DNA from: Crocinitomicaceae bacterium
GTDB lineage: Bacteria > Bacteroidota > Bacteroidia > Flavobacteriales_D > Sanyastnellaceae
Reading direction: 5' to 3'
Length of the DNA: 40,817 nt
Assembly (NCBI GenBank): GCA_002693775.1
Contig: NZRP01000018.1
Coordinates: 1-40,817, forward strand
Positions within the stretch are counted from its first letter, which is position 1. Each line of letters opens with the position of its first letter. Positions 1,632 to 19,238 of this stretch are shown one piece after another. Both the position numbers and the translations under genes were made by a program. The notes under the pieces were generated by a model that searched no databases, was not told the origin of the DNA, and worked only from the letters and a program-made list of their open reading frames with translations.

Positions 1632-4600
1632 TTATTTAACCACTGACAATCTCCTTACTGACATTCCTGCCTCAGCAGTAATCATCACGTTATAAGTTCC
1701 AGCTGCAAGACCGTTTAAGCTAAGAACAGTGTTTCCTTGAAGGACGCCGTACTGTGTAGAGTAAACAGTTCTTCCAACTCCATCAACTACAATAATAGTT
1801 ACGTCATCAAAAGCCGTAGGCATTTGAATTGTCACATCACCTGTTGTAGGGTTAGGGAACATATTGAATGCTATAGGGTCGATGATGCTGATTGAGTTGA
1901 ATAACACTTCAACTTCAGTTGTAGCAACACAACCATTTGCGTCAGTAGCCGTCACTGTGTAAACACCGGCTGCAAGACCAGCTGGATCTACAACGTTTCC
2001 TTCTGCATCAATCCAAACAACATCGTAATCTGGAGTACCACCTGTAACTTCAGATGTACCAACTCCTAATTCAGCGGCTGTTTCATCAGTTGCAGAAGCA
2101 GATACCTCAAGAAGTTCTGGCTCTACAATTTCGATATCTACTTGAGCAGAACAATCGTTATCATCTGTCACAACAACAGTGTAAACGCCAGCTGCAAGTT
2201 CAAACACGCCAGTGTCGTTAGACTCATCGCCTACTATGTAAGTAACTGCTCCTTGGCCGCCTTCAGCAACTAAAGTTACAGAACCTAACTGACCATTACA
2301 ATCAGGATCAACTGTTGTACCACCAACAATTGCTAGGTAGCAACAAGAACCATCGTCAATAGTAGCATCAGCGTCATAGTTATTCGCTGTCTCGTCTGTA
2401 CAACCTGCACAAGACTCGTACTCACATGTTCCGTCGTCAATAGTAGCATCAGAATCGTAGTTACAAGCTCCCATGTCAGTACATCCAGCACAAGAATCAA
2501 AATCACATGAGCCATCATCCTCAGTGGCTTCAGCACTGTAGTTACAAGCACCCATATCAGTACAACCTAGTACTTCTAACTCATCACATACTCCGTCACC
2601 ATCAGTATCTACTAAACAGTTTCCATCACAGTCGTAGTAGATCTCAGCGTACTCACAAAGATCTAAGTCGTTATCTGTTGCGTCAGCATTATAGTTACAA
2701 GCTGCTTCATCTAAACAACCAACAACTTCTTCCTCATCACATACTCCGTCGCCATCAGTGTCGTTGATACATTCTCCTTCACAGTTATAGTTAGCTTCTG
2801 CATACCAACATGAACCATCATCTTCAGTAGCTTCAGCATCGTAGTTACAAGCTGTCATATCTGTACAACCAGGAACTTCTTCCTCATCACATACTCCGTC
2901 GCCATCTGCGTCGTTAATACACTCGCCTTCACAGTTGTAGTATATATCAGCGTACAAACAAGACCCATCTTCTTCTGTAGCTTCTTCGTCGTAGTTACAT
3001 GCTACCATATCAGTACAACCAGGTACTTCTAACTCATCACAAACGCCGTCGCCGTCTGTATCAACTAGACAGTTACCATCACAGTCGTAGTAAATCTCAG
3101 CGTACTCACAAGAATCATCTAGATCAGTTGCATCTGCATTGTAGTTACATGCTGCCATATCTGTACAACCAGAAACTTCTTCCTCATCACATACTCCGTC
3201 ACCATCTGCATCAGCCAAACAGTTTCCATCACAATCGTAGTAAATCTCAGCGTACTCACAGCTACCATCATCATCCGTAGCGTTTTCGTCGTAATTACAA
3301 GCAGTCTCATCTGTACAACCACAAGAGCTAGCTAATGTACCCGCTAAACCTTCGAAAGAAAGAGTAACTCTACTAACATCATCTTGAGAGCCGTGGTTAA
3401 ACAGCTGAACTTGAATTATTCCCGAAGGGATGCCATCTGTAGTAAGCTGAGCTACAAGAATCTTTTGATCGTCTCCTGAAACAGCATTAGCAGTTGAATT
3501 AGGATCTAAAACAAACCAAGACCCTCCAACTGAATCATCAATATCAATTCCGCCACCAGCTTCAAACTGATCAACCCAAGAGAACTCAGTAGATTGAATT
3601 ACTTGAGGGGCGAACTCGCCATCTGCTGGTGCTTGATCAAGACCAATAGTTACCCAGCTATCAAATTCCATTTCTGGAAATGACGGGTAAATTTCAGGAA
3701 TCATATCAGATCCAAGTACGGAACCATATATATGCTGGTAAAATGAAGTTGTTGTACCAACGTTTAATGGATCTTCTTCATCACCAAAAACAGCTGATAA
3801 GAAATCATCAGTATTAGGTGTAGTTACATATAGTCTGTATGTATTGTGACCAGCAAGCTCACCATCTGTGTGCTCTGCAACTAGCTCAACTTCTAAACCG
3901 TATCCTTCTGTTCCCGCATCTGAGCATGAGCAAAAATCACAAGTACCATCGTTTTCAGTAGCACTTAAATCGTAGTTACAAGCATTTACATCATTACAAC
4001 CTTCTACTTCATTTTCATCACATACACCGTCACCGTCTGTATCATTTAAGCAGTTACCGTCACAGTCGAAGTTATCATCTGCATAGAAACAAGACCCATC
4101 ATCATCAGTTGCTGCTGAATCGTAGTTACACGCTGCCATATCTGTGCATCCAAAGTCTTCAAACTCATCACAAATTCCGTCACCATCATTATCGTTAACA
4201 CATTCTCCATCACAGTTATAAGGGGCTGTTGCGTATTCACAAGTACCATCCTCGTAAACAGCCTCTGGATCGTAGTTACACGCATTAGGATCAGTACATC
4301 CAAGTGCTAAACAAGAAGTAAAGTCACATGATCCGTCATTGAAAGTAGCAGTAGGATCGTAGTTACAAGCTTGAGGAATTGTACATCCAAATACTTCTAG
4401 CTCATCACATGTGCCATTTTCATTTACGTCATTGATACAATCACCTTCACAACTAAGGTAATCCTCTTCAGGGTACTCACATGAACCATCATCGGCATTT
4501 GCATCAGGATTGAAGTTACAAGCTGCTTCATCAATACATCCAGAAATTGGTGAAGAACCTGCTTCGAATGTACCAACACCACAGAACTCAACTGTAAGCT

Positions 4601-5210
4601 GTTCTTGATCTGCTCCAACTCCAAGAGGGAAAACCTGAAAGTTTATTGTTCCGCAAAAATCGCCTGTTGTAGTAACCTGCATAATCTTAACTCTCAAATC
4701 AGAGTCTGGCAAACCGTTAGCGGCTGTATTAAGAACGTAGTACGAAGCTCCTGTTAGAGTACTAGCTAGCAGGTTCGTTGCTCCTGGTGTTAAGAAGAAT
4801 GGAGTAATAGGCTGTGATGCATCCTCTACAAGAGATGGATCTTCAGCTCCAGCAATACCTGATGATGCAGATGGTCCTTCAAGACCAATTGTTGCATATG
4901 TGTCATCAGCCATATCTGGAAAAAAAGGCAGGAAAGCAGGGTTAATACCTGAAGCGCTCCAGCTAGAATTGAAATCTGAATTAAACACCCCATCTAAAGC
5001 CTCAAGCTCTAATGGACTTTGATTGTTTCCATAAACTGCACTCATTCTGTCGGTTGGGTCCTGCATAACAACGTAAACATGATACACAGTACTGCCGGCA
5101 ACTGCAACAGCATCTGAGGATTCAACAGTCAATGTGTATTGACCAAAAAGAGGCGAAACAGATGCACCTACAAGTAATACAGAAAAAAAATAACGTTTTA
5201 ATAAACTCAT
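1632..5210 (-). CDS. Giant secreted GCTD-module protein A with T9SS sorting domain
   Basis: 1192 aa. Residues 1-23 are a Sec signal peptide ending near LFGQ. Residues 24-213 and 437-622 are two copies of an unnamed domain of about 190 residues (Y-x-[31 protein letters not shown]), also found in proteins B and D. Thirteen modules of the type GCTDxxACNYxxxATxDDGSC lie at 224-430 and 631-956. Many are followed by a linker [22 protein letters not shown], whose Asp/Gly pattern resembles EF-hand or thrombospondin type 3 Ca2+ loops. Full modules carry six Cys, suggesting disulfides formed in the periplasm. Residues 965-1102 hold two SprB-like repeats. Residues 1117-1192 (MFPNPTTGD through GLAAGTYNVMI) form a type A T9SS sorting domain, so export across the outer membrane and surface attachment are expected. 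An adhesin or matrix role is inference. No catalytic domain is recognised. Confidence 0.9.
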   Translation of the reverse strand: MSLLKRYFFSVLLVGASVSPLFGQYTLTVESSDAVAVAGSTVYHVYVVMQDPTDRMSAVYGNNQSPLELEALDGVFNSDFNSSWSASGINPAFLPFFPDMADDTYATIGLEGPSASSGIAGAEDPSLVEDASQPITPFFLTPGATNLLASTLTGASYYVLNTAANGLPDSDLRVKIMQVTTTGDFCGTINFQVFPLGVGADQEQLTVEFCGVGTFEAGSSPISGCIDEAACNFNPDANADDGSCEYPEEDYLSCEGDCINDVNENGTCDELEVFGCTIPQACNYDPTATFNDGSCDFTSCLALGCTDPNACNYDPEAVYEDGTCEYATAPYNCDGECVNDNDGDGICDEFEDFGCTDMAACNYDSAATDDDGSCFYADDNFDCDGNCLNDTDGDGVCDENEVEGCNDVNACNYDLSATENDGTCDFCSCSDAGTEGYGLEVELVAEHTDGELAGHNTYRLYVTTPNTDDFLSAVFGDEEDPLNVGTTTSFYQHIYGSVLGSDMIPEIYPSFPEMEFDSWVTIGLDQAPADGEFAPQVIQSTEFSWVDQFEAGGGIDIDDSVGGSWFVLDPNSTANAVSGDDQKILVAQLTTDGIPSGIIQVQLFNHGSQDDVSRVTLSFEGLAGTLASSCGCTDETACNYDENATDDDGSCEYAEIYYDCDGNCLADADGDGVCDEEEVSGCTDMAACNYNADATDLDDSCEYAEIYYDCDGNCLVDTDGDGVCDELEVPGCTDMVACNYDEEATEEDGSCLYADIYYNCEGECINDADGDGVCDEEEVPGCTDMTACNYDAEATEDDGSCWYAEANYNCEGECINDTDGDGVCDEEEVVGCLDEAACNYNADATDNDLDLCEYAEIYYDCDGNCLVDTDGDGVCDELEVLGCTDMGACNYSAEATEDDGSCDFDSCAGCTDMGACNYDSDATIDDGTCEYESCAGCTDETANNYDADATIDDGSCCYLAIVGGTTVDPDCNGQLGSVTLVAEGGQGAVTYIVGDESNDTGVFELAAGVYTVVVTDDNDCSAQVDIEIVEPELLEVSASATDETAAELGVGTSEVTGGTPDYDVVWIDAEGNVVDPAGLAAGVYTVTATDANGCVATTEVEVLFNSISIIDPIAFNMFPNPTTGDVTIQMPTAFDDVTIIVVDGVGRTVYSTQYGVLQGNTVLSLNGLAAGTYNVMITAEAGMSVRRLSVVK
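2568..3320 (-). repeat. 150-bp in-frame tandem repeat array (GCTD + Ca-loop modules)
   Basis: Five head-to-tail copies inside protein A encode residues 631-881. Copy starts, read on minus, fall at 3320, 3170, 3020, 2870 and 2720. That is exactly 150 bp (50 codons) apart. The last copy is 153 bp, with one extra codon. The copies are similar but not identical at DNA level; many differences are synonymous. A second, less regular set of the same module lies at about 3930-4540. Confidence 0.9.
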
Positions 5211-5242
5211 ATGATGTATTTCTAATTATGACTTAAAGATAA

Positions 5243-5274
5243 GAATTGTATTGAACATATGACTATCTAACAAA
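5243..5274 (-). promoter_or_regulatory. Possible promoter of protein A gene
   Basis: On the minus strand, TTTG (5271-5274) is followed after 20 nt by TACAATTC (5243-5250). This is a partial match to the Bacteroidota -33 TTTG / -7 TAnnTTTG promoter, 32 nt before the ATG. Two of the six fixed -7 positions mismatch, so this is weak. Confidence 0.3.
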
Positions 5275-5310
5275 GACAAACTTCACGGAGGAAGGTTAAA
5301 AAATTCAAGC

Positions 5311-5342
5311 AAAAAAATAAGGAGAACCAAAGGCCTCCCTAT
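5311..5342 (-). terminator. Rho-independent terminator of protein B gene
   Basis: Read on minus, AGGGAGGCC - TTT - GGTTCTCCTT forms a 9-bp stem with one bulge and one G-T pair, followed by a run of seven T (5311-5317). It lies between the end of B (5366) and the start of A (5210), so B and A are probably separate transcripts. Confidence 0.7.
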
Positions 5343-5365
5343 TATTAATATAATTCTTATCAGTT

Positions 5366-7780
5366 TTAGTTAGCTTTTACTAACGCTACTGATGAAGGAA
5401 CGCCACTAGAAACTACGTTTAATCTGTAAACACCATTATCATATGAACTCAAGTCGATTACTGTATTGAAAGATGAAGCTGTTTCATTCCAAACACCAGA
5501 TTCAATTTGTCTTCCAACAGCATCAACTATGTTGTAAAGTACGTCTCCACCCTGAGCACCATCCCAATTGATTTGGAATACTCCGTTAGATGGATTAGGG
5601 TAAACACTAACTTCTAAAAGGTTAACAAGTTCTACAACATTGTCGAAGATTACGTTAAACTGCTCAACAGCTGTACAACCATTACCATCAGTTACTTCAA
5701 GAGTGTAAACTCCTGAAACAAGATTAGTAAGATCTTGATCAGACATGCCGTTTACATTTGGCCCAGTCCAGTCGAAATAGTAATCAGGAGTACCACCTGT
5801 AACACTTGCATCAATAAATCCTTCTCCCCATAGAACGTCAGTACTATTTACAATTCCAGTAATAACAAGTTCTGCTGGTTCTTCAACTACAGCAGTTAGA
5901 CCAACTTCACATCCGTTTTCATCTTGAACGTAGAATACGTACTCACCAGCAGAAAGATTATCGAATTCTCCACTATCTCCGTAAGTGTTATCATCATCAG
6001 AGTATTGGAAGCTGCCAGCCCCACCAGTAGCAGATACAGTTACAACACCGTCAGAATCACCATTACAAAGTGGGTTTTCAACTTCTGTAGTGGCAACGAT
6101 AGGATCAGCATTTAAAACTTCTACAATTTCAGAAGCAGAACAACCGTTTGCATCTTCAACTTCAACAGTGTAGAATCCAACAGGAAGACCGTTGTAAGAA
6201 GAACCAGTTAGTGTAGAATCACCTATCATTACAGTGAAGCCATCAGCCCCTCCAGTTGGAGCCCATGCTACAGAACCATTAGCTTCATCAGTACATGCTA
6301 CTGGCGATGCAGAAGCGTTCACCTCAATTGCATCAGGACCAATTACTAGATCTTCAGAAGAACCAGTACAACCGTTAACATCAACAGCTACTACGTTAAA
6401 TGTACCTGCGTATATATTGATAGGGCTAGAAGCGTACATATTTCCATCAACCTCGAATTGAATAGTAGTTGGAGCTGCACCACCTACTGCAGAAACAACG
6501 ATTTGGCCGTCAGCGATATCTGCACATGAAGCGTCTGACGTAGCAGTAACGTAAACGTTAATTGCTGGAGGGTTACTCACCTGTGTTGCAACTGATGAAC
6601 CTGTACAACCGTTTCCATCAACAGCAATTACTGTATAGTTTCCAGCAACAAGGTCAGTGAATACGTTGTTTGGAGTCATTGTTGATGGACTTTGACCTGC
6701 GAAGTAATATTGTAGATTTCCATCACCACCTGCTCCAATAGCTTCGATTATTGCATCGTTAGTGTTGTTACAAGTCATTGCCTGTGTTAAAGAAGCAGTT
6801 ACGTTTACTTCCTCTACTTCTGGGATCTCAATGTACTGAGAGTCTTGGCAACCTGCTCCGTCCTCAACCATTACATAGTAAGTACCAGCAAGCAGGTTGT
6901 TGAAGTTACCGAAGTTTGATGGTTGCTCGTCGTCTTCGCCTAAGTAGTAATCGTCAGATCCTTGAGCACCCGTCGCAGTGATTTCCAGAGAACCGTCATT
7001 GTCACCAGAACAAGTAGGAGTTGTGATGTTCTCAATAACTAGATCAAGAGTACATGGAAGAACGCATGAGTAGTCGTCGTTAGTTGCGTTAGGATCGTAG
7101 TTAGATGCATTAGGATCAGTACAACCGAAGATTGCGTTAGGGTCGTTACTGAAACCTAGTCCGTTTACGTATTCGTTTTGTGCTTGATTACCATCGTTGA
7201 ATACCTGAAGGTTGAATACACCAGTAAATGATCCGTCTGTTGTGATTTGAGCTAGAAGCACTTTATTATCTGCTCCACCAAACTGGGGGTAGTCATCAGT
7301 GCATGTAGGACTTACTGCAGGATCACAAGGAATAGTGTTGTACCATGAACCTCCGATGGGGTCATCAATGTAGAATGAACCAGTTGCCGTAAAGTCTGCC
7401 ATAGCAGCATCAAGACCAATATTTCCAAGAACACCATTATCAAATGCCGAAAGCATTCCGATAGTCATCCATGAGTCATACTCAAGTTCTGGGAATGCAG
7501 CAAAGAAATTAGGGTTGATCTCGGATCCATATAAGAAACCAGGAGTTGAGTTGTAAATGTTACCGTCCATAGTAATTCCTAAAGGATTCTCTGCATCACC
7601 ATAAACAGCAGAAACAAAATCAGTCGAGTTCGTTGTGTTTGCGTATACGTGATAGGTTGTGTAACCATCTGGTATAATCGTTCCATCGCTTACATAGAAA
7701 GTCTCAACAGAAATACCAGTAACTTGAGCTTGCAGAGCAAGAGAATAAAAGAGACTAGTGAGAAGTAACAAATGCTTCAT
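5366..7780 (-). CDS. Secreted SprB-repeat protein B with T9SS sorting domain
   Basis: 804 aa. Residues 1-19 are a signal peptide (ends ALQAQ). Residues 21-216 are the same ~190-residue unnamed domain as in A and D (TTYHVYA, DFVSAVYGDAENP, FPELEYDSWMTIG, GGSWY, NKVLLAQITTDG). A single GCTD module follows at 219-239, with its last part slightly changed (NDDYSC). Residues 248-712 hold six repeats of the SprB type, each with a Cys near the start, a TGGxG-like turn and a LxAGxYxVxVxDxNGC ending. Residues 724-804 (VYPNPSNGVFQINW through YDNGVYRLNVV) are a T9SS type A sorting domain. SprB repeats are known from the gliding adhesin of Flavobacterium johnsoniae, so a surface or adhesin role is plausible. 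The gene has its own terminator and a good -7 box upstream. Confidence 0.9.
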   Translation of the reverse strand: MKHLLLLTSLFYSLALQAQVTGISVETFYVSDGTIIPDGYTTYHVYANTTNSTDFVSAVYGDAENPLGITMDGNIYNSTPGFLYGSEINPNFFAAFPELEYDSWMTIGMLSAFDNGVLGNIGLDAAMADFTATGSFYIDDPIGGSWYNTIPCDPAVSPTCTDDYPQFGGADNKVLLAQITTDGSFTGVFNLQVFNDGNQAQNEYVNGLGFSNDPNAIFGCTDPNASNYDPNATNDDYSCVLPCTLDLVIENITTPTCSGDNDGSLEITATGAQGSDDYYLGEDDEQPSNFGNFNNLLAGTYYVMVEDGAGCQDSQYIEIPEVEEVNVTASLTQAMTCNNTNDAIIEAIGAGGDGNLQYYFAGQSPSTMTPNNVFTDLVAGNYTVIAVDGNGCTGSSVATQVSNPPAINVYVTATSDASCADIADGQIVVSAVGGAAPTTIQFEVDGNMYASSPINIYAGTFNVVAVDVNGCTGSSEDLVIGPDAIEVNASASPVACTDEANGSVAWAPTGGADGFTVMIGDSTLTGSSYNGLPVGFYTVEVEDANGCSASEIVEVLNADPIVATTEVENPLCNGDSDGVVTVSATGGAGSFQYSDDDNTYGDSGEFDNLSAGEYVFYVQDENGCEVGLTAVVEEPAELVITGIVNSTDVLWGEGFIDASVTGGTPDYYFDWTGPNVNGMSDQDLTNLVSGVYTLEVTDGNGCTAVEQFNVIFDNVVELVNLLEVSVYPNPSNGVFQINWDGAQGGDVLYNIVDAVGRQIESGVWNETASSFNTVIDLSSYDNGVYRLNVVSSGVPSSVALVKAN

Positions 7781-7807
7781 AAATAGTAGTTTTTTTCAAG
7801 AATTTCA

Positions 7808-7815
7808 CAAATATA
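7808..7815 (-). promoter_or_regulatory. -7 box (TAnnTTTG) upstream of protein B
   Basis: Minus-strand TATATTTG fits the Bacteroidota -7 consensus at every fixed position and lies 27 nt before the ATG at 7780. No good -33 TTTG is seen at the right distance. Confidence 0.45.
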
Positions 7816-7856
7816 GTTTCCGAGGTGTTTATAACGACTTTTATATAGTTAAAATA

Positions 7857-8288
7857 TCAACACATCGAAGGCCTCCTTAAAAGGCCATTTTTTTCAATAG
7901 ACTCCCTCCATTCAGAAGGCACCGAAACAGTAGTTTTTACAATGTTATTGTAGCAAACTATAACTGTCTCAGACTCAGCCGAAAGAACTTTCTTTCCGCC
8001 TTTTAATAGATATGCTTCATAAGCAAAAGTGAGACTCTTCACTCCAACAGACTTAACCCAAACTATAATTTCCAACTCATCATCTAATGTAACTGGATGC
8101 CTATAGTCAACTTTTTGGGATGCAACAAGAACTCCGCTCTTTTTCCAATCCCAAACTCCTACAATTTTCTTGAATAAATTGATTCGGCTTTCTTCAAAAA
8201 ATAATAAAAATATTGCATTGTGAACTATTCCATAAGAATCAATATCAGCGAATCTGATTTCAGGTTTATATATCATATACTCTTTCAT
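7857..8288 (-). CDS. Acyl-CoA thioesterase, 4HBT/YbgC-like hotdog fold
   Basis: 143 aa, typical length for single hotdog-fold thioesterases, which hydrolyse acyl-CoA thioesters in the cytoplasm. The N-terminal block RFADIDSYGIVHNAIFLLFFEESRI matches the 4-hydroxybenzoyl-CoA thioesterase/YbgC pattern (D-x-D-x-x-G-x-V-x-x-x-x-Y/F-xx-FFExxR). Asp17 is the likely catalytic residue. The later QKVDYRHPVTLDDELEI block also fits. The substrate cannot be told. Its stop is 76 nt before the start of protein B on the same strand; I see no terminator between, so some read-through into B is possible. A -7-like TACCTTAG lies 4 nt before the start codon. Confidence 0.83.
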   Translation of the reverse strand: MKEYMIYKPEIRFADIDSYGIVHNAIFLLFFEESRINLFKKIVGVWDWKKSGVLVASQKVDYRHPVTLDDELEIIVWVKSVGVKSLTFAYEAYLLKGGKKVLSAESETVIVCYNNIVKTTVSVPSEWRESIEKNGLLRRPSMC

Positions 8289-8417
8289 AAAACTAAGGTA
8301 TCCTATGATGTTAGTACTTTTTGAGAGTTTTTCACTCTAAAACACTTCAATTTTTCTAGGTTTATTAACAAAAAGGCCCAGGTTCTTAACAAAATGCATG
8401 TATTATGGCTGAACCCC

Positions 8418-8474
8418 TTGACACTGCTGAGATTCTGCCGTTACATTGCGAAGACAAGATTAAAAAATTATTTG
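8418..8474 (+). promoter_or_regulatory. Candidate promoter(s) of hup
   Basis: Two overlapping candidates precede the HU gene. One is TTGACA (8418-8423), N17, TTACAT (8441-8446), which resembles a classical sigma-70 promoter. The other is TTG (8446-8448), N18, ATTATTTG (8467-8474), nearer the Bacteroidota -33/-7 form. I cannot tell from sequence which is used. Confidence 0.35.
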
Positions 8475-8496
8475 TTTAACCTAAAAAATCATTCTC

Positions 8497-8760
8497 ATGA
8501 ACAAAGCAGAATTGGTTGATGCTATGGCTTCAAGTGCAGGCATCTCAAAAGCGGACGCAGGTCGCGCACTAGACGGATTTATTTCAGCAACTAAAGGAGC
8601 TCTTGGAAAAGGAGACCGTGTATCTCTAGTAGGATTCGGTTCTTTCTCTGTAAAGCACCGTCCAGCACGTAAGGGTCGTAACCCACAAACTGGTGCTGAG
8701 ATTCAAATCGCAGCAAAGAACGTTGTAAAGTTCAAAGCTGGATCAGGCCTAGACGTATAA
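8497..8760 (+). CDS. hup: HU family DNA-binding protein
   Basis: 87 aa, the usual HU length. It is a small nucleoid protein that bends and wraps DNA as a dimer. It starts with [11 protein letters not shown], carries the core [11 protein letters not shown], and has the DNA-binding arm with the intercalating proline in [10 protein letters not shown], followed by [10 protein letters not shown]. It is monocistronic: flanked upstream by a divergent thioesterase gene and closed downstream by a long terminator at 8787-8822. The basic, Ala-rich composition and clean start leave little doubt. Confidence 0.95.
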
Positions 8761-8786
8761 GTTGCAATAGCAATTTTTTATGAATT

Positions 8787-8822
8787 AGCCCTTCTTGTCC
8801 GTGAGGCAGGAGGGGCTTTTTT
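8787..8822 (+). terminator. Rho-independent terminator of hup
   Basis: 13-bp stem (8787-8799 with 8805-8817, including G-T pairs) around the loop CGTGA, followed by a run of T. It lies 27 nt after the hup stop. Confidence 0.9.
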
Positions 8823-8833
8823 AATTCTATCAC

Positions 8834-9520
8834 ATGCCCTCTATAGACAAACTCACTGAATCCCTTTATACTTTTCTTACAGAGGAGAGAAAGCAGAGGT
8901 TTGAGAAAGTGCTAAATAAAAGAACTAGACATATAGCTCTTATTCTAGAGGATGTATACCAAAGCAGAAACACTTCTGCTATTATGCGATCTGCCGATGG
9001 AATTGGAATTCAAGACTTCCACATTATTGAAACCATTCATAAGTGGAATAAAAACAAAAGTGTTTCTAAGGGCGCATCAAGTTGGCTAACACTTAACAAA
9101 TACGATTCAATTGACTCATGTATAGAAAAAGTGAAGTCACTTGGATATCGAATAGTTGCCACCTCACCACACGAAGGAGGATACACCCCTGACACCCTTC
9201 CAATAGACAAACCTGTTGCGATAGTAATGGGGACTGAGCTCAATGGCATCACACCTCCACTCATGTCAAAAGTTGATGATTACTTGGAAATACCTATGCT
9301 TGGATTCTCAGAAAGCTTTAATATATCTGTAGCTTCTTCAATTATAACAAGTAGGCTAAGAAATAGACTAAATGAAATGAAAATAGACGATGGATTGAGT
9401 GATAAAGAAAAAGCTGAATTGAGATTAGTTTGGGCTTATAACTCATTAAATGATCCAGAAGCGATTATGAGACATTTGGGCTTAGAATTACCAGAGGAGA
9501 TAAGAAGCAAAATTTTATGA
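8834..9520 (+). CDS. trmH: tRNA (guanosine-18-2'-O)-methyltransferase
   Basis: 228 aa SPOUT-class enzyme that methylates the ribose of G18 in the tRNA D-loop with S-adenosylmethionine. The three SpoU motifs are visible: RNTSAIMRSADGIGI (Asn46 and the catalytic-type Arg52), IVMGTELNGI (Glu135), and LGFSESFNISVASSI (Asn163), which forms the trefoil-knot cofactor site. The C-terminal extension after residue 175 (ending PEEIRSKIL) is typical of TrmH rather than the shorter TrmL. Its stop overlaps the start of the MATE gene by 4 nt (ATGA), so the two are translationally coupled. Confidence 0.92.
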   Translation: MPSIDKLTESLYTFLTEERKQRFEKVLNKRTRHIALILEDVYQSRNTSAIMRSADGIGIQDFHIIETIHKWNKNKSVSKGASSWLTLNKYDSIDSCIEKVKSLGYRIVATSPHEGGYTPDTLPIDKPVAIVMGTELNGITPPLMSKVDDYLEIPMLGFSESFNISVASSIITSRLRNRLNEMKIDDGLSDKEKAELRLVWAYNSLNDPEAIMRHLGLELPEEIRSKIL

Positions 9521-10851
9521 GAACTGACTACAAGGGGCTGCTTCTAATTGCTCTTCCTATTTCAATTGGAACATTTGTACAGTTCTTGGTTCTACTAACT
9601 GACAACTATTTCCTTGCTAGAGTAAGTGAGGCAGCAATAAACGGAGCAGGAAATGCTGGACTTACCTACCTAACAATAGGCATGGCAATCTTTGGTAGCG
9701 CAACTGGCCTTCAAATCCTTGTAGCAAGACGCAAGGGAGAAGGTGACTACCAAATGCAATTAAGAACAGGCAGAACCGGTTGGATCATTCACACAATACT
9801 GGGAATAACCCTTTGCTCAATTCTGTATTTACTTAACCAAGGGGCTCTAGGTAGTCTAATAGATAGTAGCGAAGTAAGAGATGTATTCGAGCCATTCTTA
9901 GGCGTAAGGATTTGGGGTTGCATTCCATATGGAATCACATTTGCTTTTACTGCATATTGGACAGGAATTGCTAGAACTAGATTACTTCTGGTTGTAAGTC
10001 TAGCTACAGCTTTCGCTAACATTGTACTTGATTACGCTTGGATAGAGGGAAACCTGGGGTTTGAAGCTATGGGACACATGGGAGCTGCTAGAGCTTCATT
10101 GATGTCTGAAATACTTGGTTTTATTGCAGGAGCGCTCCTTATGTTAAAGGTTGAACCCAGATTTTTCAAGCTTCCTAAACAACCTGACGGAGAAGTTTTC
10201 AAGGCATGGTGGAAGATCTCTGGTCCGCTTATGGGCCAACTTTTGCTTACGGTAGGCACATGGACATCTTTCTTCTTCTTTGTAGAAAAAGTGGGATCAA
10301 CAGAGCTTAAAGTGTCGCACATAGGAAGAAATGCCTTCATGTTTGCCTTTATCGTTACTTCAGGGATAGGCCAAACCACCCGGACAGTCATCTCCACACT
10401 AATCGGAGCAAATAGAAACTCTGAGTTAATACCAACGGTTAAAAAGCTTTGGATACTCAACATCATTGGCGTCCTGCTCCTCACCCATGGATTTATACTC
10501 TACCCTGAATTCATCGCAAGCCTGTTCTTTGAAGATCCTGATCACATCGCTATTATGTCAAAAACCTTCACCACCCTTTTTATCGCGGTTCTTGGCTTTG
10601 CCAGCAGCTCAATACTCCTGTCCACTCTTGAAGGGGCAGGCGGTACTAAGAGAGCGTTTATTGTGGAAATGCTCAGCGCAGGAATGTATTTAGCTGGCGT
10701 TTGCTACTTAACAAGCGAGGTAAAAGGAAACTACAGGCCTATTGAAGTGATTTGGCGAGTTGAGTGGATATACTTCACATTCATAGCTCTTGGATGCCTT
10801 ATAGCATTAAGAAATGGTAAATGGCAACGCGGCTTAGAATCACTTAGCTAA
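9517..10851 (+). CDS. MATE family efflux transporter
   Basis: 444 aa, about twelve hydrophobic segments, a normal length for multidrug and toxic compound extrusion (MATE) exporters driven by Na+ or H+. The start LLLIALPISIGTFVQFLVLLTDNYFLARV matches the MATE opening pattern (xPxxxxxxxxxxxxxxDxxxxG/A). The second half repeats the fold from about residue 230 (KISGPLMGQLLLTVGTW). It overlaps trmH by 4 nt and is followed after 9 nt by fmt, suggesting a trmH-MATE-fmt unit. The substrate cannot be inferred. It may belong to the NorM or DinF branch. Confidence 0.88.
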   Translation: MRTDYKGLLLIALPISIGTFVQFLVLLTDNYFLARVSEAAINGAGNAGLTYLTIGMAIFGSATGLQILVARRKGEGDYQMQLRTGRTGWIIHTILGITLCSILYLLNQGALGSLIDSSEVRDVFEPFLGVRIWGCIPYGITFAFTAYWTGIARTRLLLVVSLATAFANIVLDYAWIEGNLGFEAMGHMGAARASLMSEILGFIAGALLMLKVEPRFFKLPKQPDGEVFKAWWKISGPLMGQLLLTVGTWTSFFFFVEKVGSTELKVSHIGRNAFMFAFIVTSGIGQTTRTVISTLIGANRNSELIPTVKKLWILNIIGVLLLTHGFILYPEFIASLFFEDPDHIAIMSKTFTTLFIAVLGFASSSILLSTLEGAGGTKRAFIVEMLSAGMYLAGVCYLTSEVKGNYRPIEVIWRVEWIYFTFIALGCLIALRNGKWQRGLESLS

Positions 10852-10860
10852 TTTTACAAT

Positions 10861-11799
10861 ATGAATATTGTCTTTATGGGAACACCAAATTTCGCGGCTG
10901 TATGTCTAGAATCAATTATTAGCAGCAAACACAATGTTACAGGCGTTGTTACTGCCCCAGACAGACAAAAAGGGAGAGGCAGAAAGATTAGTGAATCTGC
11001 CGTGAAAAGGGTTGCGACCGAACATGAGATTCCGTTAGCGCAGCCGGAAAAGCTTAAAGCAGAGGAGTTTCACGAGGTGCTAAGAGGTTGGAACGCTGAT
11101 CTGTTTGTTGTGGTAGCATTTAGGATGTTGCCTGAGGTAGTTTGGGCTATGCCCCCTAAAGGGACAATCAACCTACACGCCTCACTTCTTCCACAATTTA
11201 GAGGAGCCGCGCCCATACAAAGAGCAATTATGCAAGGCGCAACTGAAAGTGGCGCAACTGTCTTTAGGTTAACTGATGAGATCGACACTGGGAACATTTT
11301 GAGCTCAATTAGCTTAGAAATAGGTCCTAATGAAAACGCAGGTTCATTGCACGACAGGATTTTGAATGCAGGAAAGGATCTTTTAGTAGAAGCACTTGAC
11401 ACAATTTCAAATGGTAATGACGTAGAGACTCCTCAGGAAAGCCTAATAAACAATGATATTGATATATTTGAAGCTCCTAAAATCTTCAAAGAAGACAGGA
11501 GAATTGACTGGAGAAAGAGCACGGAGGTGGTTCACAATACAATTAGAGGATTAAGCCCATATCCAGGAGCTTTCACTGTAATTGAGGGCTCAAATGAGCC
11601 CTATAAAATCCTTGATGGTAAGACTTGCAAAAAGCAAGACTTAAAAGCTGGAGAAACTCTTGTAGTAAATAGCAAATTATACGTTGGCACATGCGATGGA
11701 TGTTACGAGATCACAAAACTTCAACCTGCAGGCAAGCCAGCAATGGATACTAGCTCTTTCGCAAGAGGATTAAGAGAAGAATTGGGCAATTTCTCTTGA
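10861..11799 (+). CDS. fmt: Methionyl-tRNA formyltransferase
   Basis: 312 aa, the usual length. It transfers a formyl group from 10-formyl-tetrahydrofolate to initiator Met-tRNA before translation starts. It opens with IVFMGTPNFA. The catalytic set Asn104-His106-Asp142 lies in INLHASLLPQFRGAAPIQ and EIDTGNIL, and the loop APDRQKGRG is typical. The C-terminal beta-barrel domain follows (RGLSPYPGAFTVI). It lies 9 nt after the MATE gene. A -7-like TAATTTTA sits 4 nt before its ATG. It meets the subtilase gene head-on with only 7 nt between stops and no clear terminator. Confidence 0.95.
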   Translation: MNIVFMGTPNFAAVCLESIISSKHNVTGVVTAPDRQKGRGRKISESAVKRVATEHEIPLAQPEKLKAEEFHEVLRGWNADLFVVVAFRMLPEVVWAMPPKGTINLHASLLPQFRGAAPIQRAIMQGATESGATVFRLTDEIDTGNILSSISLEIGPNENAGSLHDRILNAGKDLLVEALDTISNGNDVETPQESLINNDIDIFEAPKIFKEDRRIDWRKSTEVVHNTIRGLSPYPGAFTVIEGSNEPYKILDGKTCKKQDLKAGETLVVNSKLYVGTCDGCYEITKLQPAGKPAMDTSSFARGLREELGNFS

Positions 11800-11806
11800 G
11801 GCCATT

Positions 11807-11974
11807 TTAGCAAGACTGCCCGAAAGATGCAAGTAATAATAGAACATCTTGAACATTTGTAGCTCCATCACTATTTAAATCTGCATCACAGTTGCTCATG
11901 CAACCAAACTCTCCCAAAAGCAGTAAAATATCAGCTACAGATATAATTCCGTCCTCGTTAATGTCAGCTGGACA
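11807..11974 (-). other. Dockerin-like C-terminal domain of protease C
   Basis: Encodes residues 1103-1157. Two loops follow the pattern D-x-N-x-D-G-xx-x-V-x-D-xLLLLxxFG, as in type I dockerins, and the segment is bounded by Cys residues. It sits where A and B carry T9SS sorting domains. Protein D ends with a single loop of the same kind. Confidence 0.7.
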
Positions 11975-14900
11975 GTCACAACTATCATACTCACAGCTTT
12001 CATCGTCAAATGTCGCTTCAGCATTGTAGTTACATGCATCTAAATCAGTACAGCCTACTACGTCAAGCTCGTCACAAATGCCGTTTGCATTAACATCATT
12101 AAGGCAATTTCCATCGCAATCATATGGAGTTTCTTGGAACACACAAGAACCATCATCTTGAGTAGCCTCAGGCATATAGTTACATGCTTCTTCATCAGTA
12201 CAACCAAGAATATCAATTGTTATCTCTTGCTCACAAATTCCAACAAATATGATAGACAAATCATACAAAGCGCCTTCAGAGTTTGTGTAGCCATTAGCAA
12301 TAGAAACAGACCAAGTACCTTCACCCTCTATACCTAAGGCTATCATATTGATTTCAATCCCATAATTTCCCGCCACAGTTGTCTGCCACTCATTTGGGTA
12401 AAAATCCAAGTAGTTACCCAAGAAATCACATACTCCAGACTGAACATTATACCCTCCCAACTCATAACAAAGACCGTTGGGAGAAGTAAACAAAATAATC
12501 AAATCAGCAGGCCAACTTGCGCTAGACTCAACATCCTCCCAGTTCATATCTATAACAATGGATTCCAACATTCCTGTTCCTTCAAATTCTATTGGCTCAG
12601 ATTGGTCTGTTCCAACAAGTACAGTGTTGAATTCAACAAGAGACTCACAATCGCATCCAAATGCAATATCTGGGAACTCACAACTACCGTCATCAATTAT
12701 TGCTGTTACGTCATAGTTACAAGCATCTTCATCAGTACAACCAGTGCAATCATAATCACAAGAACCGTCGTCCATTGTCGCATCAGGATTGTAGTTACAA
12801 GCTGATGAATCAGTACAACCCATCTCAGTATCACCAACACAGAACATAACGCTTTCATTACTAAAGAACTCCCCTCCTGTAGCTACAACAACACCAGAAA
12901 CTACTATCTCATAATATCCTTCACCGTAGGCACAACAAATACCATCACCAAATGTATCAGAAATTGTGAATGTGTAACAACCATCTTCTAAGCACAGTTG
13001 GTTTGCGTAGTTTGTATAACTCTCAGTGTATTGAGAACTCGAAGCAACAATTTCAACAAGGCTACTCACTTGCCAAGAAGTTTCTGTTGGGTAATTATCA
13101 GTGTAAATATTAATCTCGACACCTGAACCTCCGATAATGCAAGACCCATCATCTATTGTAGCTGTTGGATCAAAATTACACGCTGCAGAATCAGTACAAC
13201 CAATACAGCCAGTGCCATCACCACCACACTCTCCACACTGATCAAAGTATTCACAAGAGCCATCGTCTATAGTTGCAAAATCATCGAAGTTACAAGCTGA
13301 CATATCAGTACAGCCTATACAATCATAAATACAAGATCCATCATCAAAGGCAGCGTTTGAATCGTAGTTACATGCTGATGAATCAGTGCAACCCATTCCA
13401 CAATCAACCCCACTTATTGAGATTAAATCCTCACCACTTGAGGTTCCATCTCCGCTCATAGCAGAATCCAAATCACCCATTGCGATTATATCTCCAGACT
13501 GAAGATCTACAAATGAATAACTTGCTCCATTCCAACCATCACCGTAGCTATCGTACATTAAAAGAGTATAACAACCCTCTCCTAAACATAGCTCTTGAGT
13601 TCCTGTTTCACCACTAACAAGTGTATTTCCATTTAGCATAAGAGTCCAAGTAATCTCACCATCCCAAGTACCTCCACCAACATAAATAGACACACTGTTT
13701 CCGTAAACGCAACTTCCATCCTCAATTGTTGCTGCAGTATTGTAGTTACAAGCTGAAGAGTCAGTACATCCTGTACAAGATGAATTGTTACCTCCACAAA
13801 TTCCGCAATCGTCAAAATAATCACACGAACCATTATCCTCAATTGCTTCAGGGCTGTAGTTACATGCAGATGGATCAGTACATCCTAAATCAGAATTACA
13901 GTTGCTCATAGCTATGCTAACCGAGTTGTATGCATTTAGCCTTCCACCTGTCACCGTTTCTCCAACTAAGTTTGGCACAACATCTACACCATCTAGAATG
14001 TAGCCTCTCACAATGTCAGCTGTGTTCTGAGGATTCGAGATTGCAGCATTTGCCAAATCTGAACAAGGCACACTATATACTAGTGCAATAGCACCAGCAA
14101 CACACGGAGTTGCAAATGATGTTCCAGAAGTAGAAGAATAATTTGATGAACCAGACGGCAAGTAAACGCTTTCCCCTGGAGCAGCTAAATCAATAGTTGT
14201 AGCTCCGTAAGCAGAGAATGTTCTTACATCATTAGAATTAGTCGCCGTTACACTCATCATGTAATCAGACCCACAACCAGTAGGCATATCACCCTGCGTA
14301 TCCACATTGTACTGCGCGTTTGCTGTTGCTCCACAGTTGATGATTCCAACCTCACCTAAGTCGTCGTAATAAGAGCACCATACCGGGTAGCTAGCTGGAT
14401 TAGCAAGGTCTATTCCCCATGAAGCGTTAGTAGCCACTACAAATGCTCCCTCTGACCCACCAGAGTTATTAAACATATCACGCATCACATATGGGTAGTT
14501 ATAAGCAGCAATCACATTAGACTCTGTAAGTCCACCCATTTGGATTTGCATTATTCCCACATTCCAATTCACACCCGCACCGCCTTGGTTGTTGTTTCCC
14601 TTAGCTCCTATCATTCCACTTACAGCAGTACCATGACCACCAGCAGAAATCACATCATTGTTTGAATTCGTGTTCCATCCGTTGTAATCATCTGTATATC
14701 CGTTTCCATCATCATCCTGACCATTGCCCGGAATTTCACCATTATTTACCCAGTGATTAGCTATCAAGTCAGTATGATCCCAATTTGAACCTCCTCCCTC
14801 AAGAACTGCTACCACAATTTGGTCTCCATTTGCTGTTTCTCCTCCAGTAGTTATATCCCAAGCCAAATCACTATCTATGTCATGATCACCACTCTGAATG

Positions 14901-15280
14901 TGATGCCATTGCTGAGAAAAAGACGGATCGTTGGGCGTGGCCCTATCCTCTACATAGTGATTGTACTGAACGGCTTCAACGGCTCTATCCTTACTAAGCT
15001 CACGCAATAAAACATCACCATCTGCTCTTTCTTCACTATATCTAAAAAGGTAGATATGCGACAGATCAGACAAAACCTTAACTGGCTCAAGGCTGGTCTT
15101 ATGGCCTTCTACATTTTTATACTTGTCAGCAAACAACTGAGGGTTTAAATCACCATGAAACATTATGATCAATTCACCTGGAACTGTAGTCCCTTGAGGA
15201 GCTGTTAATGATTGTTTTTGGGCAAAGAAAGGGGTTGCAATTGCACAAAAAACAAATAGGATAGCAATAAGTTTTCTCAT
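11807..15280 (-). CDS. Secreted subtilisin-like protease C with GCTD modules and dockerin-like end
   Basis: 1157 aa. Residues 1-20 are a signal peptide, ~30-115 a propeptide-like region, and ~130-460 an S8 peptidase domain with His216 (GGHGT), Asn285 (NASWG) and Ser388 (SGTSFATP). The position of the triad Asp (usually VAVxDTG) reads VAVLEGG, so it is Glu161. Nine GCTD modules follow from residue 466. Two ~100-residue domains of the DSYGDGWNG kind lie among them, at 527-627 and 718-816 (the second reads DTFGDGICC). Residues ~878-1016 resemble a proprotein-convertase P domain. Residues 1103-1157 contain two dockerin-like Ca2+ loops (DINEDGIISVADILLLLGEFG and its partner), ending in Cys. No T9SS type A domain is present. 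It is probably an exported surface protease. Activity with Glu in place of Asp is uncertain. Confidence 0.88.
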   Translation of the reverse strand: MRKLIAILFVFCAIATPFFAQKQSLTAPQGTTVPGELIIMFHGDLNPQLFADKYKNVEGHKTSLEPVKVLSDLSHIYLFRYSEERADGDVLLRELSKDRAVEAVQYNHYVEDRATPNDPSFSQQWHHIQSGDHDIDSDLAWDITTGGETANGDQIVVAVLEGGGSNWDHTDLIANHWVNNGEIPGNGQDDDGNGYTDDYNGWNTNSNNDVISAGGHGTAVSGMIGAKGNNNQGGAGVNWNVGIMQIQMGGLTESNVIAAYNYPYVMRDMFNNSGGSEGAFVVATNASWGIDLANPASYPVWCSYYDDLGEVGIINCGATANAQYNVDTQGDMPTGCGSDYMMSVTATNSNDVRTFSAYGATTIDLAAPGESVYLPSGSSNYSSTSGTSFATPCVAGAIALVYSVPCSDLANAAISNPQNTADIVRGYILDGVDVVPNLVGETVTGGRLNAYNSVSIAMSNCNSDLGCTDPSACNYSPEAIEDNGSCDYFDDCGICGGNNSSCTGCTDSSACNYNTAATIEDGSCVYGNSVSIYVGGGTWDGEITWTLMLNGNTLVSGETGTQELCLGEGCYTLLMYDSYGDGWNGASYSFVDLQSGDIIAMGDLDSAMSGDGTSSGEDLISISGVDCGMGCTDSSACNYDSNAAFDDGSCIYDCIGCTDMSACNFDDFATIDDGSCEYFDQCGECGGDGTGCIGCTDSAACNFDPTATIDDGSCIIGGSGVEINIYTDNYPTETSWQVSSLVEIVASSSQYTESYTNYANQLCLEDGCYTFTISDTFGDGICCAYGEGYYEIVVSGVVVATGGEFFSNESVMFCVGDTEMGCTDSSACNYNPDATMDDGSCDYDCTGCTDEDACNYDVTAIIDDGSCEFPDIAFGCDCESLVEFNTVLVGTDQSEPIEFEGTGMLESIVIDMNWEDVESSASWPADLIILFTSPNGLCYELGGYNVQSGVCDFLGNYLDFYPNEWQTTVAGNYGIEINMIALGIEGEGTWSVSIANGYTNSEGALYDLSIIFVGICEQEITIDILGCTDEEACNYMPEATQDDGSCVFQETPYDCDGNCLNDVNANGICDELDVVGCTDLDACNYNAEATFDDESCEYDSCDCPADINEDGIISVADILLLLGEFGCMSNCDADLNSDGATNVQDVLLLLASFGQSC

Positions 15281-15319: not shown

Positions 15320-18300
15320 TTATTCGTAAGATGAAATTAACACATTAAGTATCTCTGAAGCTGATGAAGTGATTGGTGTACCAGGGCCAAACACTCCCAC
15401 AACCCCCATCTTATACAGCTGATCGTAGTCCGAAGGCGGTATCACTCCTCCCGCTACTACTAAAATATCGGGTCTTCCTAGCTGTTCAAGCTCAGCGATT
15501 AATCCTGGAACTAGGGTCATGTGCCCTGCAGCAAGAGTCGAAATACCAACAACGTGAACATCGTTTTCAATTGCCTGTCGAGCAACTTCTTCTGGAGTAG
15601 AGAACAACGGACCTAAATCAACATCAAAACCCAAATCAGCAAATGACGAAGCCACCACCTTAGCTCCTCTATCATGCCCATCTTGCCCCATTTTAGCAAC
15701 AAGAATTCTAGGTCTACGACCTGCAAGTCCAGCAAACTTATTGCTTGCATTTAGTACTTCATTAAATTTTTCTTCTCCGCTCATATTTTTCGAAAATACG
15801 CCACTTACTCTTCTATCCTTTGGCTTAAATCTATCAAAGACTTTCTCAAGAGCTTCACTAATTTCTCCCAGTGTTGCCCTACACCTTGCAGCTTCAACAG
15901 AAAGCGCAAGCAGATTACCGTCTGATTTAGCACCATTTTCAAGATTACTTAAAGCTTTTGATACAGCCTTTGAATCTCTATCTGACTTTAGTTTTTCAAG
16001 AAGACTCACCTGTTGATTTCTAACTGCATTTGCGTCAACATTAAGCAAGTCTAATTCAGAATCGATCTCATCTTCTACTTGAAAGATATTTACTCCAATA
16101 ATTTTATCTACCCCTCTATCTATTCTTGCCTGCTTACTAGCAGCAGCTTCTTCAATTCTAAGTTTAGGCAGCCCCACTTCGATAGCTTGAGACATACCGC
16201 CGTGTGCTTCAATTTCATCCATGAGCGATTTTGCCCTTGTAGCAATTTCAGCTGTCAAGTATTCAATCAAATCTGAACCTTCCCAAGGATCAACAGCGCC
16301 AGTGTAGCCCGCTTCCATTTGAAGCATAAGCTGAGTGTTTCTTGCAATTCTTGCAGAGGCATCAGTTGGCAAGGCAATTGCCTCATCCAGTGAATTTGTA
16401 TGAAGACTCTGAGTCCCACCAAACGTTGCAGACAATGCCTCAATTGCTGTTCGAGCAACATTATTCCAAGGGTCCTGAGCAGTCAGAGACCAACCTGAAG
16501 TCTGTGTATGAGTTCTAAGCATCGAACTTCTAGGGTCTGAAGGTGAGAATTGCTGCATTTTTTCAGCCCAAATCATTCGAGCTGCTCTCATTTTAGCAAT
16601 TTCCATTACATGGTGCATGCCGTTTGCCCAAAAGAAACTCAGTCTTGGGGCAAAGTCGTCGACACTAAGGCCTGCTTCAATTCCGGTTTTTACGTATTCA
16701 AGCCCGTCTGAAATCGTATAGGCAAGTTCCAATTCAGGAGTGGCGCCCGCTTCCTGCATGTGATATCCTGAGATACTAATGGAGTTAAACTTGGGCATAT
16801 TCTCAGAGGTGTATTTGAAAATGTCAGATACTATCCTCATAGATGGGGCTGGTGGGTAGATAAAGGTATTCCTCACCATGAATTCTTTAAGAATGTCGTT
16901 TTGGATTGTGCCGGCAAGCTTATCAGCACTCACTCCTTGCTCTTCAGCAGCGACAACATAGAAGGCTAGAATGGGCAATACTGCACCATTCATAGTCATA
17001 CTCACAGACATCTTATCGAGAGGGATTCCTTCGAAAAGACGCTTCATATCATCAACGCTATCGATAGCTACTCCCGCCTTCCCTACGTCGCCAGTCACTC
17101 TTGGATGATCACTATCATACCCTCTATGGGTGGCGAGGTCGAAGGCGACTGAGAGGCCCTTTTGGCCTGCGGCTAGATTCCTTCTATAAAAAGCATTTGA
17201 TTCCTCAGCGGTAGAAAAACCTGCGTACTGCCTGACAGTCCAAGGCCTACTCGCATACATAGTTGGATAAGGCCCCCCCAAATACGGTGGCAATCCAGCC
17301 TTGAATCCTTTGTGCGGAGCTGTGTAAGGATTCTGAGCAAAACTAACCGGGACATCAATACCCTCAGCAGTTTCTATAGTTTTATTACTCTTCGCTTTAA
17401 GGTTTAACAAGTTCTTGAACTTAAACTCTTCAGAACCAACAGCTGTAGTTTGAACTCCATCGACAAAAGGATGGTCAAGAACAAAGAAATCTACTGTATC
17501 ATCTGACGAAATCGCCATATCACCTCTTTCTGAATCACTTGGCACATAGACTGGCGCAGTACACCAAATCTTTCTACCCTCTTTTATAGCTGCAGCAACT
17601 CCCCTAAAATCTCCTAGTGCACAATTTGCAAAATATCTAGTCGCCAAATCCAAATGCCTACTCCCACCCATTGGGTCGTTAGTCCTACCCAGCATAGCTT
17701 CCTCTCTAAGAATGTGACTAACGTTTCTAGCAAGTCTCCTTGCTCTCTCTTTGTCCTTTTCTACAGGGTTTCTTATATCGTGCCTTCTTACTTCCACACC
17801 GTCAGCTCCACCTAGGACTGCTGAATACCCCATTAAAGTGTTGCGCAAAATATTATCCTCTTGCTTATCTCCAACTAACAGTACTGAGGTAGTTCTTGCA
17901 TCAATTCTTATGGGTGCTGATGCAATACTTGCCAAGGCCACCCTCAATCCTCTAATCATAGCTGCTGATGCAATGATATCCGTTGAAACAGCAACTCTCA
18001 CTACACACTTGTTAGCAGCCTCTTCAGCCGAGTAACCCTCTGCTACCAAAGCCTCAACTCCCCACTTTACTGCTTCTACAACTCCTGCAACAGCGTCCCC
18101 GGCCATCATACCCCTGTCTTGCCATACTGAAGCATCTACTCCCCAAGTTCTGAATTGCGGCAAAGCTGTAGACCAAACCTGCACGTGCCTAGCAAAATCA
18201 CTCACATCCTCTGGCAAACCCTTACCCAAATCCCAGGCTGCCGAACCATCAACCTTGCATCCATCAGCCCAATTTAAAACGGACCTCAATATGCCTTCAT

Positions 18301-18649
18301 TCATGTGCCCATCAACGTGAACGCCTACCATCCCAGGCTTAACCCCCTCAAGTACTTCTCCGCTTTGAATTCGAATGGCTTCCACCCCCTGCTCGAGAGC
18401 TTTCATCAAACTCGCTCCGTCCTCAAAGCTTTCCGTTATCTCCCACGGATGACCCAAGTCATCACGAAGCGAAACAGGACGATCTGGTATTTTAACACAC
18501 TCATGACCACAATCAACGGTAAGCGGCAACGGCATTCCGTCCCACCTGGACCTCTCTAAATCATCAATGGACCGACCTCTTAACGACTCCACGGCTTTCT
18601 TCCTCCATTCAGAGGGTGTTGGAACAGAAAATATTTGAGAATTTTTCAC
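15320..18649 (-). CDS. Single-chain methylmalonyl-CoA mutase (MutA-MutB fusion)
   Basis: 1109 aa. It interconverts (R)-methylmalonyl-CoA and succinyl-CoA using adenosylcobalamin. Residues 1 to ~420 look like the small subunit MutA ([44 protein letters not shown]). Residues ~440-1109 are a full catalytic subunit: [16 protein letters not shown] with active-site Tyr465, [12 protein letters not shown] with the substrate His, then a C-terminal B12 domain with [10 protein letters not shown] (cobalt-ligand His992), GISTLAAGH and VVAGGVIP. No GTPase motifs are present, so it is not the IcmF fusion, which also has its B12 domain at the N terminus. The subunits are usually two genes. The frame is uninterrupted across the junction. 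The start is GTG: a stop lies two codons upstream and the next Met is at residue 39. A -7-like TATTTTTA precedes it by 4 nt. Confidence 0.92.
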
Positions 18650-18653
18650 GGCT

Positions 18654-18661
18654 TAAAAATA
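18654..18661 (-). promoter_or_regulatory. -7-like box before methylmalonyl-CoA mutase
   Basis: Minus-strand TATTTTTA matches TAnnTTTG at all fixed positions but the last and lies 4 nt before the GTG start, a spacing that would give an almost leaderless mRNA. No -33 element is clear. Confidence 0.3.
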
Positions 18662-18684
18662 CGAATTCAACCTCCGATGAAGGT

Positions 18685-18692
18685 TAGATTTG
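18685..18692 (+). promoter_or_regulatory. -7 box (TAGATTTG) before HAD phosphatase gene
   Basis: Fits TAnnTTTG at every fixed position and lies 5 nt before the ATG at 18698. If used, it would start transcription at or next to that ATG and exclude the upstream ATG at 18677. The -33 region is poor. Confidence 0.35.
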
Positions 18693-18697
18693 TCATT

Positions 18698-19222
18698 ATG
18701 GATAAGGATAATATTTTCCACAATACTTCAAGAGAGCCACAGCTAAAGGCCATATTTCTCGACCGAGACGGCGTGATTAACTACGACCCGGGCGATTACA
18801 CAAGGAATTTAAGAGAGTTCACGATTCTACCTACTGTGATGAAGTCATTAAAGGTGCTAAAAGACAGAGGTTTTGTCTTTGTGCTTATCACTAATCAAGG
18901 TGGGATTGCTAAAGGGATTTATGGGCATGAAGAAGTGCGAGAAATTCACACCTATTTACAGAAGGTGTGCGAGGATAATGGCACGCCGATATTAGACATT
19001 TACTACAGCCCACATCACGAGACTACAGGTCTTTCATTAACTAGAAAGCCTGGGTCGATGATGGTAGAAAGGGCTGTCGCGAGATATAACATTGACCCAA
19101 AAAAGTCATGGATGGTGGGTGACAAGCAAAGGGATTTGGACTCAGCCGCTGCCTTAGGCGTCCCCGGAGTGTTAATTGCTCCCAACGATCCACTTGAAGA
19201 CTATTTAGACAAGCTCATTTAA
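18698..19222 (+). CDS. HAD phosphatase, GmhB / histidinol-phosphatase-like
   Basis: 174 aa, the length of D-glycero-D-manno-heptose-1,7-bisphosphate 7-phosphatases and HisB-N phosphatases. HAD motifs are present: FLDRDGVIN (Asp nucleophile), LITNQGG (Ser/Thr motif), RKPGSMM (Lys), and MVGDKQRDLDSA (metal Asp). The Zn-binding Cys cluster of classical GmhB, expected just before RKPG, is missing; that loop reads SPHHETTGLSLT. The substrate is therefore uncertain: heptose bisphosphate for LPS core, histidinol phosphate or another sugar phosphate. Starts at 18635, 18677 and 18698 are all in frame. I prefer 18698 because a -7 box lies 5 nt before it. The methylmalonyl-CoA mutase gene is divergent, and a PabC-like gene follows after 16 nt. 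Confidence 0.8.
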   Translation: MDKDNIFHNTSREPQLKAIFLDRDGVINYDPGDYTRNLREFTILPTVMKSLKVLKDRGFVFVLITNQGGIAKGIYGHEEVREIHTYLQKVCEDNGTPILDIYYSPHHETTGLSLTRKPGSMMVERAVARYNIDPKKSWMVGDKQRDLDSAAALGVPGVLIAPNDPLEDYLDKLI

Positions 19223-19238
19223 GTGTATATTTAGGTTG

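Follow-up and report, generated by a model that had tools for sequence, protein, structure and literature searches.

The window analysed here, the whole 40,817-nucleotide stretch of contig NZRP01000018.1 from a Crocinitomicaceae bacterium, encodes three large proteins in which a segment of about 190 residues recurs. The locus raises the question of what this segment is and what it may do on the proteins that carry it.

A recurring domain in three proteins of the window

Four homologous copies of the ∼190-residue segment had been proposed in a preliminary description of the window, and these were confirmed, with HMM envelopes lying within about 20 bases of the original coordinates (Table 1). 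Pairwise BLASTP comparisons among the four copies gave 29–43% identity (E 2e-14 to 1e-50), and a search of all six frames of the window using a profile of the four copies returned no fifth. The motifs reported as common to all copies were recovered, with small changes, in A2, B and D; most of them differ in copy A1, where the corresponding versions read VYHVYVVM, RMSAVYGNNQSP, DTYATIG, GASYY and IMQVTTTG. Across 42 domain sequences, the invariant columns were D84, T88, Q155 and T157 (copy A2 numbering).

Table 1. Coordinates of the domain copies, their carrier proteins and the dockerin features in the window, and of gene pairs in two loci from other families.
Feature	Position	Strand	Remarks
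Domain copy A1	4557-5144	-	HMM envelope; immediately follows the protein A signal peptide; a divergent subtype
Domain copy A2	3327-3911	-	HMM envelope; copy modelled by AlphaFold2
Domain copy B	7127-7729	-	HMM envelope; immediately follows the protein B signal peptide
Domain copy D	38097-38657	-	HMM envelope; mid-protein in protein D
Protein A, 1192 aa	1632-5210	-	Signal peptide (by eye), two domain copies, GCTD/TSP3-like modules, T9SS tail
Protein B, 804 aa	5366-7780	-	Signal peptide (by eye), domain, one GCTD, SprB repeats, T9SS tail
Protein D, 1556 aa from the listed GTG	35952-40622	-	Domain, GCTD/TSP3-like modules, LTD-like region
T9SS type A sorting domain, protein A	1644-1862	-	Por_Secre_tail / TIGR04183
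T9SS type A sorting domain, protein B	5402-5605	-	Por_Secre_tail / TIGR04183
Single dockerin-like EF-hand repeat, C-terminus of protein D	35958-36041	-	Tail profile E 5.9e-14, the profile having been built with this repeat included
Secreted subtilase	11807-15280	-	Peptidase_S8 at residues 158-409 of the frame from 15298; without T9SS tail
Two-repeat dockerin, C-terminus of the subtilase	11810-11980	-	Proposed ligand type of the domain
Locus L261, repeat gene and T9SS-tailed domain gene	5661-7328, then 7332-13538		3-base gap
Locus L260, repeat gene and T9SS-tailed domain gene	5208-7889 beside 1473-5198		

Proteins A and B both scored above the cut-off for T9SS type A cargo (PF18962 / TIGR04183) at their C-termini, and gene B is the upstream neighbour of gene A. 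Genes of the B kind (about 805 aa) and of the A kind (two copies, 1118–1590 aa) are also paired, as judged by match coordinates, in several genomes of the genus (G001, G003, G006, G008 and G011). Protein D ends in one dockerin-like repeat in place of a T9SS tail, with weak matches to Dockerin_1 and NF041540. Its reading frame stays open to 40769 and is interrupted above, and the true N-terminus is missing. The interruption is an in-frame TGA (40770-40772, minus strand) that stands in for a Cys of the repeat pattern and lies 46 bases short of the contig end; beyond it the frame goes on upstream with TSP3-like sequence. Either a nonsense change or an error in the assembly could account for this TGA.

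Family status and distribution

The statement that the segment belongs to no named family stood up to a search for a Pfam or TIGRFAM family covering its whole length: Pfam and NCBIfam scans gave no match over the domain in the three proteins or in 42 relatives. PHROGs and PDB sequences likewise held no match to any of the 42 relatives, and no account of the domain, or of dockerins in Flavobacteriales, was found in the literature. The ∼190-residue unit is a new family of secreted beta-sandwich domains, lineage-specific among the Bacteroidota genomes covered.

The domain was found in 113 of the 114 genomes of the family-level clade to which the window belongs and in 3 of 395 genomes sampled across the phylum; it also occurs in a few genomes from three other families of the order. 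Named carriers were marine MAGs labelled Crocinitomicaceae or Flavobacteriales; the archaeal label of one further record, PBNL01 (L061, L086; “Euryarchaeota archaeon SP189”), is probably wrong. Since phage records, plasmid records and IMG/VR contained no match, the domain is not viral or plasmid-borne in these collections.

Within the genome of the window, 17 domain copies were located in 12 ORFs (a broader profile gave 18 matches). The smallest carrier is a secreted protein of 213 aa that consists of a signal peptide and one domain and nothing else, which indicates that the domain is an independent folding unit. Complete domain proteins have two kinds of ending, one being a T9SS sorting domain and the other a brief sequence of the form CPxDxNGDGxIxxxDLLDFLxxxGxxC. 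Most bear the former, often with several domain copies, and the domain is therefore expected at the cell surface. One carrier (L020, 6708-10349, plus strand) has an apparent blue-copper (plastocyanin-like) domain, recognised by eye, between its first and second copies.

Association with GCTD modules

The preliminary description had also noted a constant position of the domain just before a GCTD module and had suggested a functional pairing of the two. The adjacency is usual, in that among the 232 copies followed by such a module at any distance, 202 have it no more than 60 residues away, but it is not constant: a GCTD is lacking from 3 of the 12 domain ORFs of the window's genome and, in two other families, from 4 of the 6 domain proteins (of these four, one is incomplete). 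GCTD modules are also about seven times more numerous than the domain (1778 versus 258). The pairing is thus weak and non-specific and, although a GCTD adjoins all four copies in the window, we consider it extremely unlikely that the domain acts together with this module.

The same architecture, with the domain often repeated and then followed by GCTD/TSP3-like modules, would suit a structural spacer or matrix unit of long, Cys-rich GCTD/TSP3-like stalks that has no protein ligand. Such a role appears distinctly unlikely; the domain also stands alone in the 213 aa protein and occurs without GCTD in this and other genomes, and a spacer would leave the covariation described below unexplained. 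The module that does covary with the domain is the dockerin, which had escaped the earlier reading of the sequence.

Dockerin modules of the same genome

A search with the tail of the domain proteins yielded 36 repeat matches spread over 23 ORFs of the window's genome, at the extreme C-terminus in 20 of these ORFs and as tandem pairs in 12. The [YF]PNP motif of the T9SS tail was present near the end of none of the 23, and only two also contain the domain. In two proteins (L255 and L249) the repeats lie near the N-terminus, just past the signal peptide, rather than at the C-terminus. Carriers include the subtilase of the window, an M12B reprolysin-like peptidase (L248), an esterase, vanadium-haloperoxidase-like proteins, choice-of-anchor B propellers and a sortilin/BNR protein.

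The 57-residue module at the end of the subtilase contains two repeats of a Ca-loop and a helix, with DxNxDG...D conserved in both, and its model (pLDDT 93.8) places the helices at residues 15-23 and 43-51. A profile search matched it to the solved dockerin 2y3n_B (E 1.4e-8), and its predicted structure superposes on that chain at 1.2 Å over 56 of 57 residues, with 38% identity and Z 10.7. VIA-align listed 26 structures, every one of them a dockerin-bearing chain, and Foldseek gave E 6e-5. Judged by its sequence and predicted structure, this tandem repeat module is a real dockerin. It resembles Dockerin type I (PF00404) and the GC-type (NF041540) in its two repeats of a Ca-loop and F-helix and in its C-terminal place on enzymes. 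Unlike those families, many large proteins here have a single repeat, and the best proteins fall 3–5 bits under both curated cut-offs (19.7 of 22.9 bits for Pfam and 25.9 of 29 bits for NCBIfam); the window subtilase itself is not among the listed matches to PF00404 or NF041540.

The Pfam cohesin model gave no match in this genome and matched in only 3 of 37 genomes of the family, once in each. Across the phylum Bacteroidota the same search found cohesins in 97 of 296 genomes, so the absence from the window's genome is not a failure of the tool.

Covariation and gene neighbourhood

Domain and dockerin-repeat counts were compared in a sample of 60 genomes, with up to 37 domain copies and 124 dockerin repeats per genome. 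The two counts were correlated over 21 genera of the family (Spearman rho 0.88, the genera not being fully independent) and over its 22 genomes that were at least 90% complete (rho 0.77). Outside the family, each of the three domain-bearing genomes contained dockerin repeats (E ≤ 1e-3), whereas the 20 that lack the domain had none (Fisher p 6e-4, which like the other p-values is naive because genomes share ancestry). Some of the sequences behind the dockerin-repeat profile were tails taken from domain-bearing proteins; in the window's genome, 21 of the 23 repeat carriers have no domain. As a control, the number of T9SS-tail candidates was used as a measure of secretome size (for many genomes as first-look counts only); it showed no correlation with the domain (rho -0.17) and was rejected as a confounder. 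The covariation could still reflect common ancestry or a shared surface lifestyle.

Gene order was read in two of the three outgroup genomes that have the domain (the third being G440). In both, G027 and G032, the gene with the sole dockerin-repeat match of the genome adjoins a domain gene that has a T9SS tail, the gaps being 3 and 9 bases (Table 1), and the dockerin proteins of the two loci are alike by eye. Each cluster also contains a TonB-dependent receptor, at 10663-13776 (minus strand) in L260 and at 16249-19323 (plus strand) in L261. The genes for the domain, the dockerin and the TonB-dependent receptor form a conserved locus in these two other families.

These observations bear on the possibility that the dockerin-like module serves mainly as a sorting or retention signal, with the domain an unrelated particle or polysaccharide adhesin and both expanded in a surface-attached lineage. 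Dockerin and T9SS tails are mutually exclusive at the C-terminus, as such a signal would have it, and no further export signal is known for the dockerin proteins; we know of no outer-membrane route for dockerin proteins with a signal peptide only. Furthermore, the LVIVD / choice-of-anchor B core occurs with either tail: it is dockerin-tailed in L254 and L257 and T9SS-tailed in the window, where an LVIVD-repeat protein (24721-26172, minus strand) has a sub-threshold T9SS tail. This fits dockerin and T9SS tails as interchangeable C-terminal anchors on the LVIVD core, which is compatible with either a sorting signal or a ligand for a receptor. Against a sorting role, the module is a full dockerin that superposes closely on a solved structure, a general signal does not predict that a lone dockerin gene should adjoin domain genes in two other families, and the domain count does not track the number of T9SS tails. 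On balance we regard this alternative as somewhat unlikely.

Predicted fold and comparison with cohesins

The AlphaFold2 model of copy A2, based on a 42-row alignment (pLDDT 95.7, pTM 0.91), is an all-beta sandwich with short helices. Foldseek found no PDB match to it at E ≤ 1e-3; one unnamed viral-library protein, G4YC55_4, was matched at E 3e-4. Using VIA-align, the best match was a tie at Z 6.2 between the adhesin Als9-2 and the type II cohesin 2y3n_A, the latter spanning the model end to end (128 residues, 3.9 Å). Cohesins, of which the PDB contains many, made up 29 of the best 50 rows at Z 4.8–6.2, under the value of 8 that serves VIA-align as a yardstick. As all VIA-align matches are below Z 8, a cohesin-like jelly-roll fold of the domain is a lead only. 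2y3n_A is the partner of 2y3n_B, the best structural match of the window dockerin, so that the two halves of one complex are the best (or tied best) matches of the two modules, significantly for the dockerin and not for the domain.

A relation to cohesins by sequence was rejected, with an hhalign probability of 0.1% against a 28-sequence cohesin profile, and PF00963 matched none of the domain relatives scanned. Given the failed sequence test and fold matches that stay below significance, we do not claim membership of the cohesin family. The domain is like cohesins in being secreted, and its modelled beta-sandwich may share their topology (113–134 residues aligned end to end at 3.5–4.4 Å); like the cohesins of cellulosomal and non-cellulosomal scaffoldins, it occurs in multiple copies on anchored, putatively scaffolding proteins, and dockerins abound in the genomes that encode it. 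It differs from them in having no detectable sequence relation, a Z of at most 6.2 and a greater length (190 versus about 140 residues). Cohesins are also recognised by their occurrence with dockerins on scaffold or anchor proteins, and this was observed for the domain in the covariation, the outgroup adjacency and the T9SS-anchored multi-domain carriers.

The tie with the N-terminal domain of Als adhesins (2y7l, 4lee) would suit an Als- or Sdr-like adhesin whose groove would capture an extended peptide or a surface ligand. Among the fold matches, Als9-2 (Z 6.2) and Als3 (Z 6.0) rank first or share first place, and Foldseek listed Als3 at E 1.4e-3. These scores are as insignificant as those of the cohesins, with fewer such rows, no sequence relation and a different architecture, and an adhesin of this kind would leave the dockerins unexplained; we therefore consider it very unlikely.

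A putative dockerin receptor

The genomes that encode the domain also encode many secreted proteins with a C-terminal dockerin in place of a T9SS tail. The best explanation of these data, to which we give an even chance, is that the domain works like a cohesin, as a surface receptor that putatively binds these Ca-binding dockerins. The T9SS-anchored proteins A and B would then be scaffold and anchor, proteins with both domain and dockerin (D and L020) would be adaptors, and dockerin enzymes such as the window subtilase would plug into the domain receptors, with Ca2+-dependent binding leading to assembly at the surface.

A comparable scheme has been hypothesised for freshwater Planctomycetes as the “planctosome” (PMC6461901), a non-cellulosic cohesin-dockerin arrangement with LTD, TSP3 and M12B reprolysin-like peptidases. 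The genome of the window is similar in having a dockerin reprolysin (L248) and a domain protein with LTD- and TSP3-like regions (D). Unlike in that model, which names cohesins, there is no Pfam cohesin here and the candidate receptor is an unnamed domain; the phylum differs as well, and the anchors here are of the T9SS type.

With this work, an abundant domain absent from Pfam and NCBIfam is now named. It is puzzling that the dockerins of these genomes have no recognised cohesin partner; this would be explained if the domain is their receptor, and the two modules would then make up an orthogonal receptor-plug pair. We tentatively propose, at somewhat short of an even chance, a second, sequence-unrelated class of cohesin: a T9SS-displayed putative dockerin receptor that gathers peptidases and other exoenzymes on the surface of marine Flavobacteriales. 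If true, a sequence profile of the domain could be used to seek this solution in other organisms, and a large clade of marine Flavobacteriales would have a non-cellulosic counterpart of the cellulosome, showing how marine flavobacteria could hold peptidases and exoenzymes on the cell rather than lose them to seawater.
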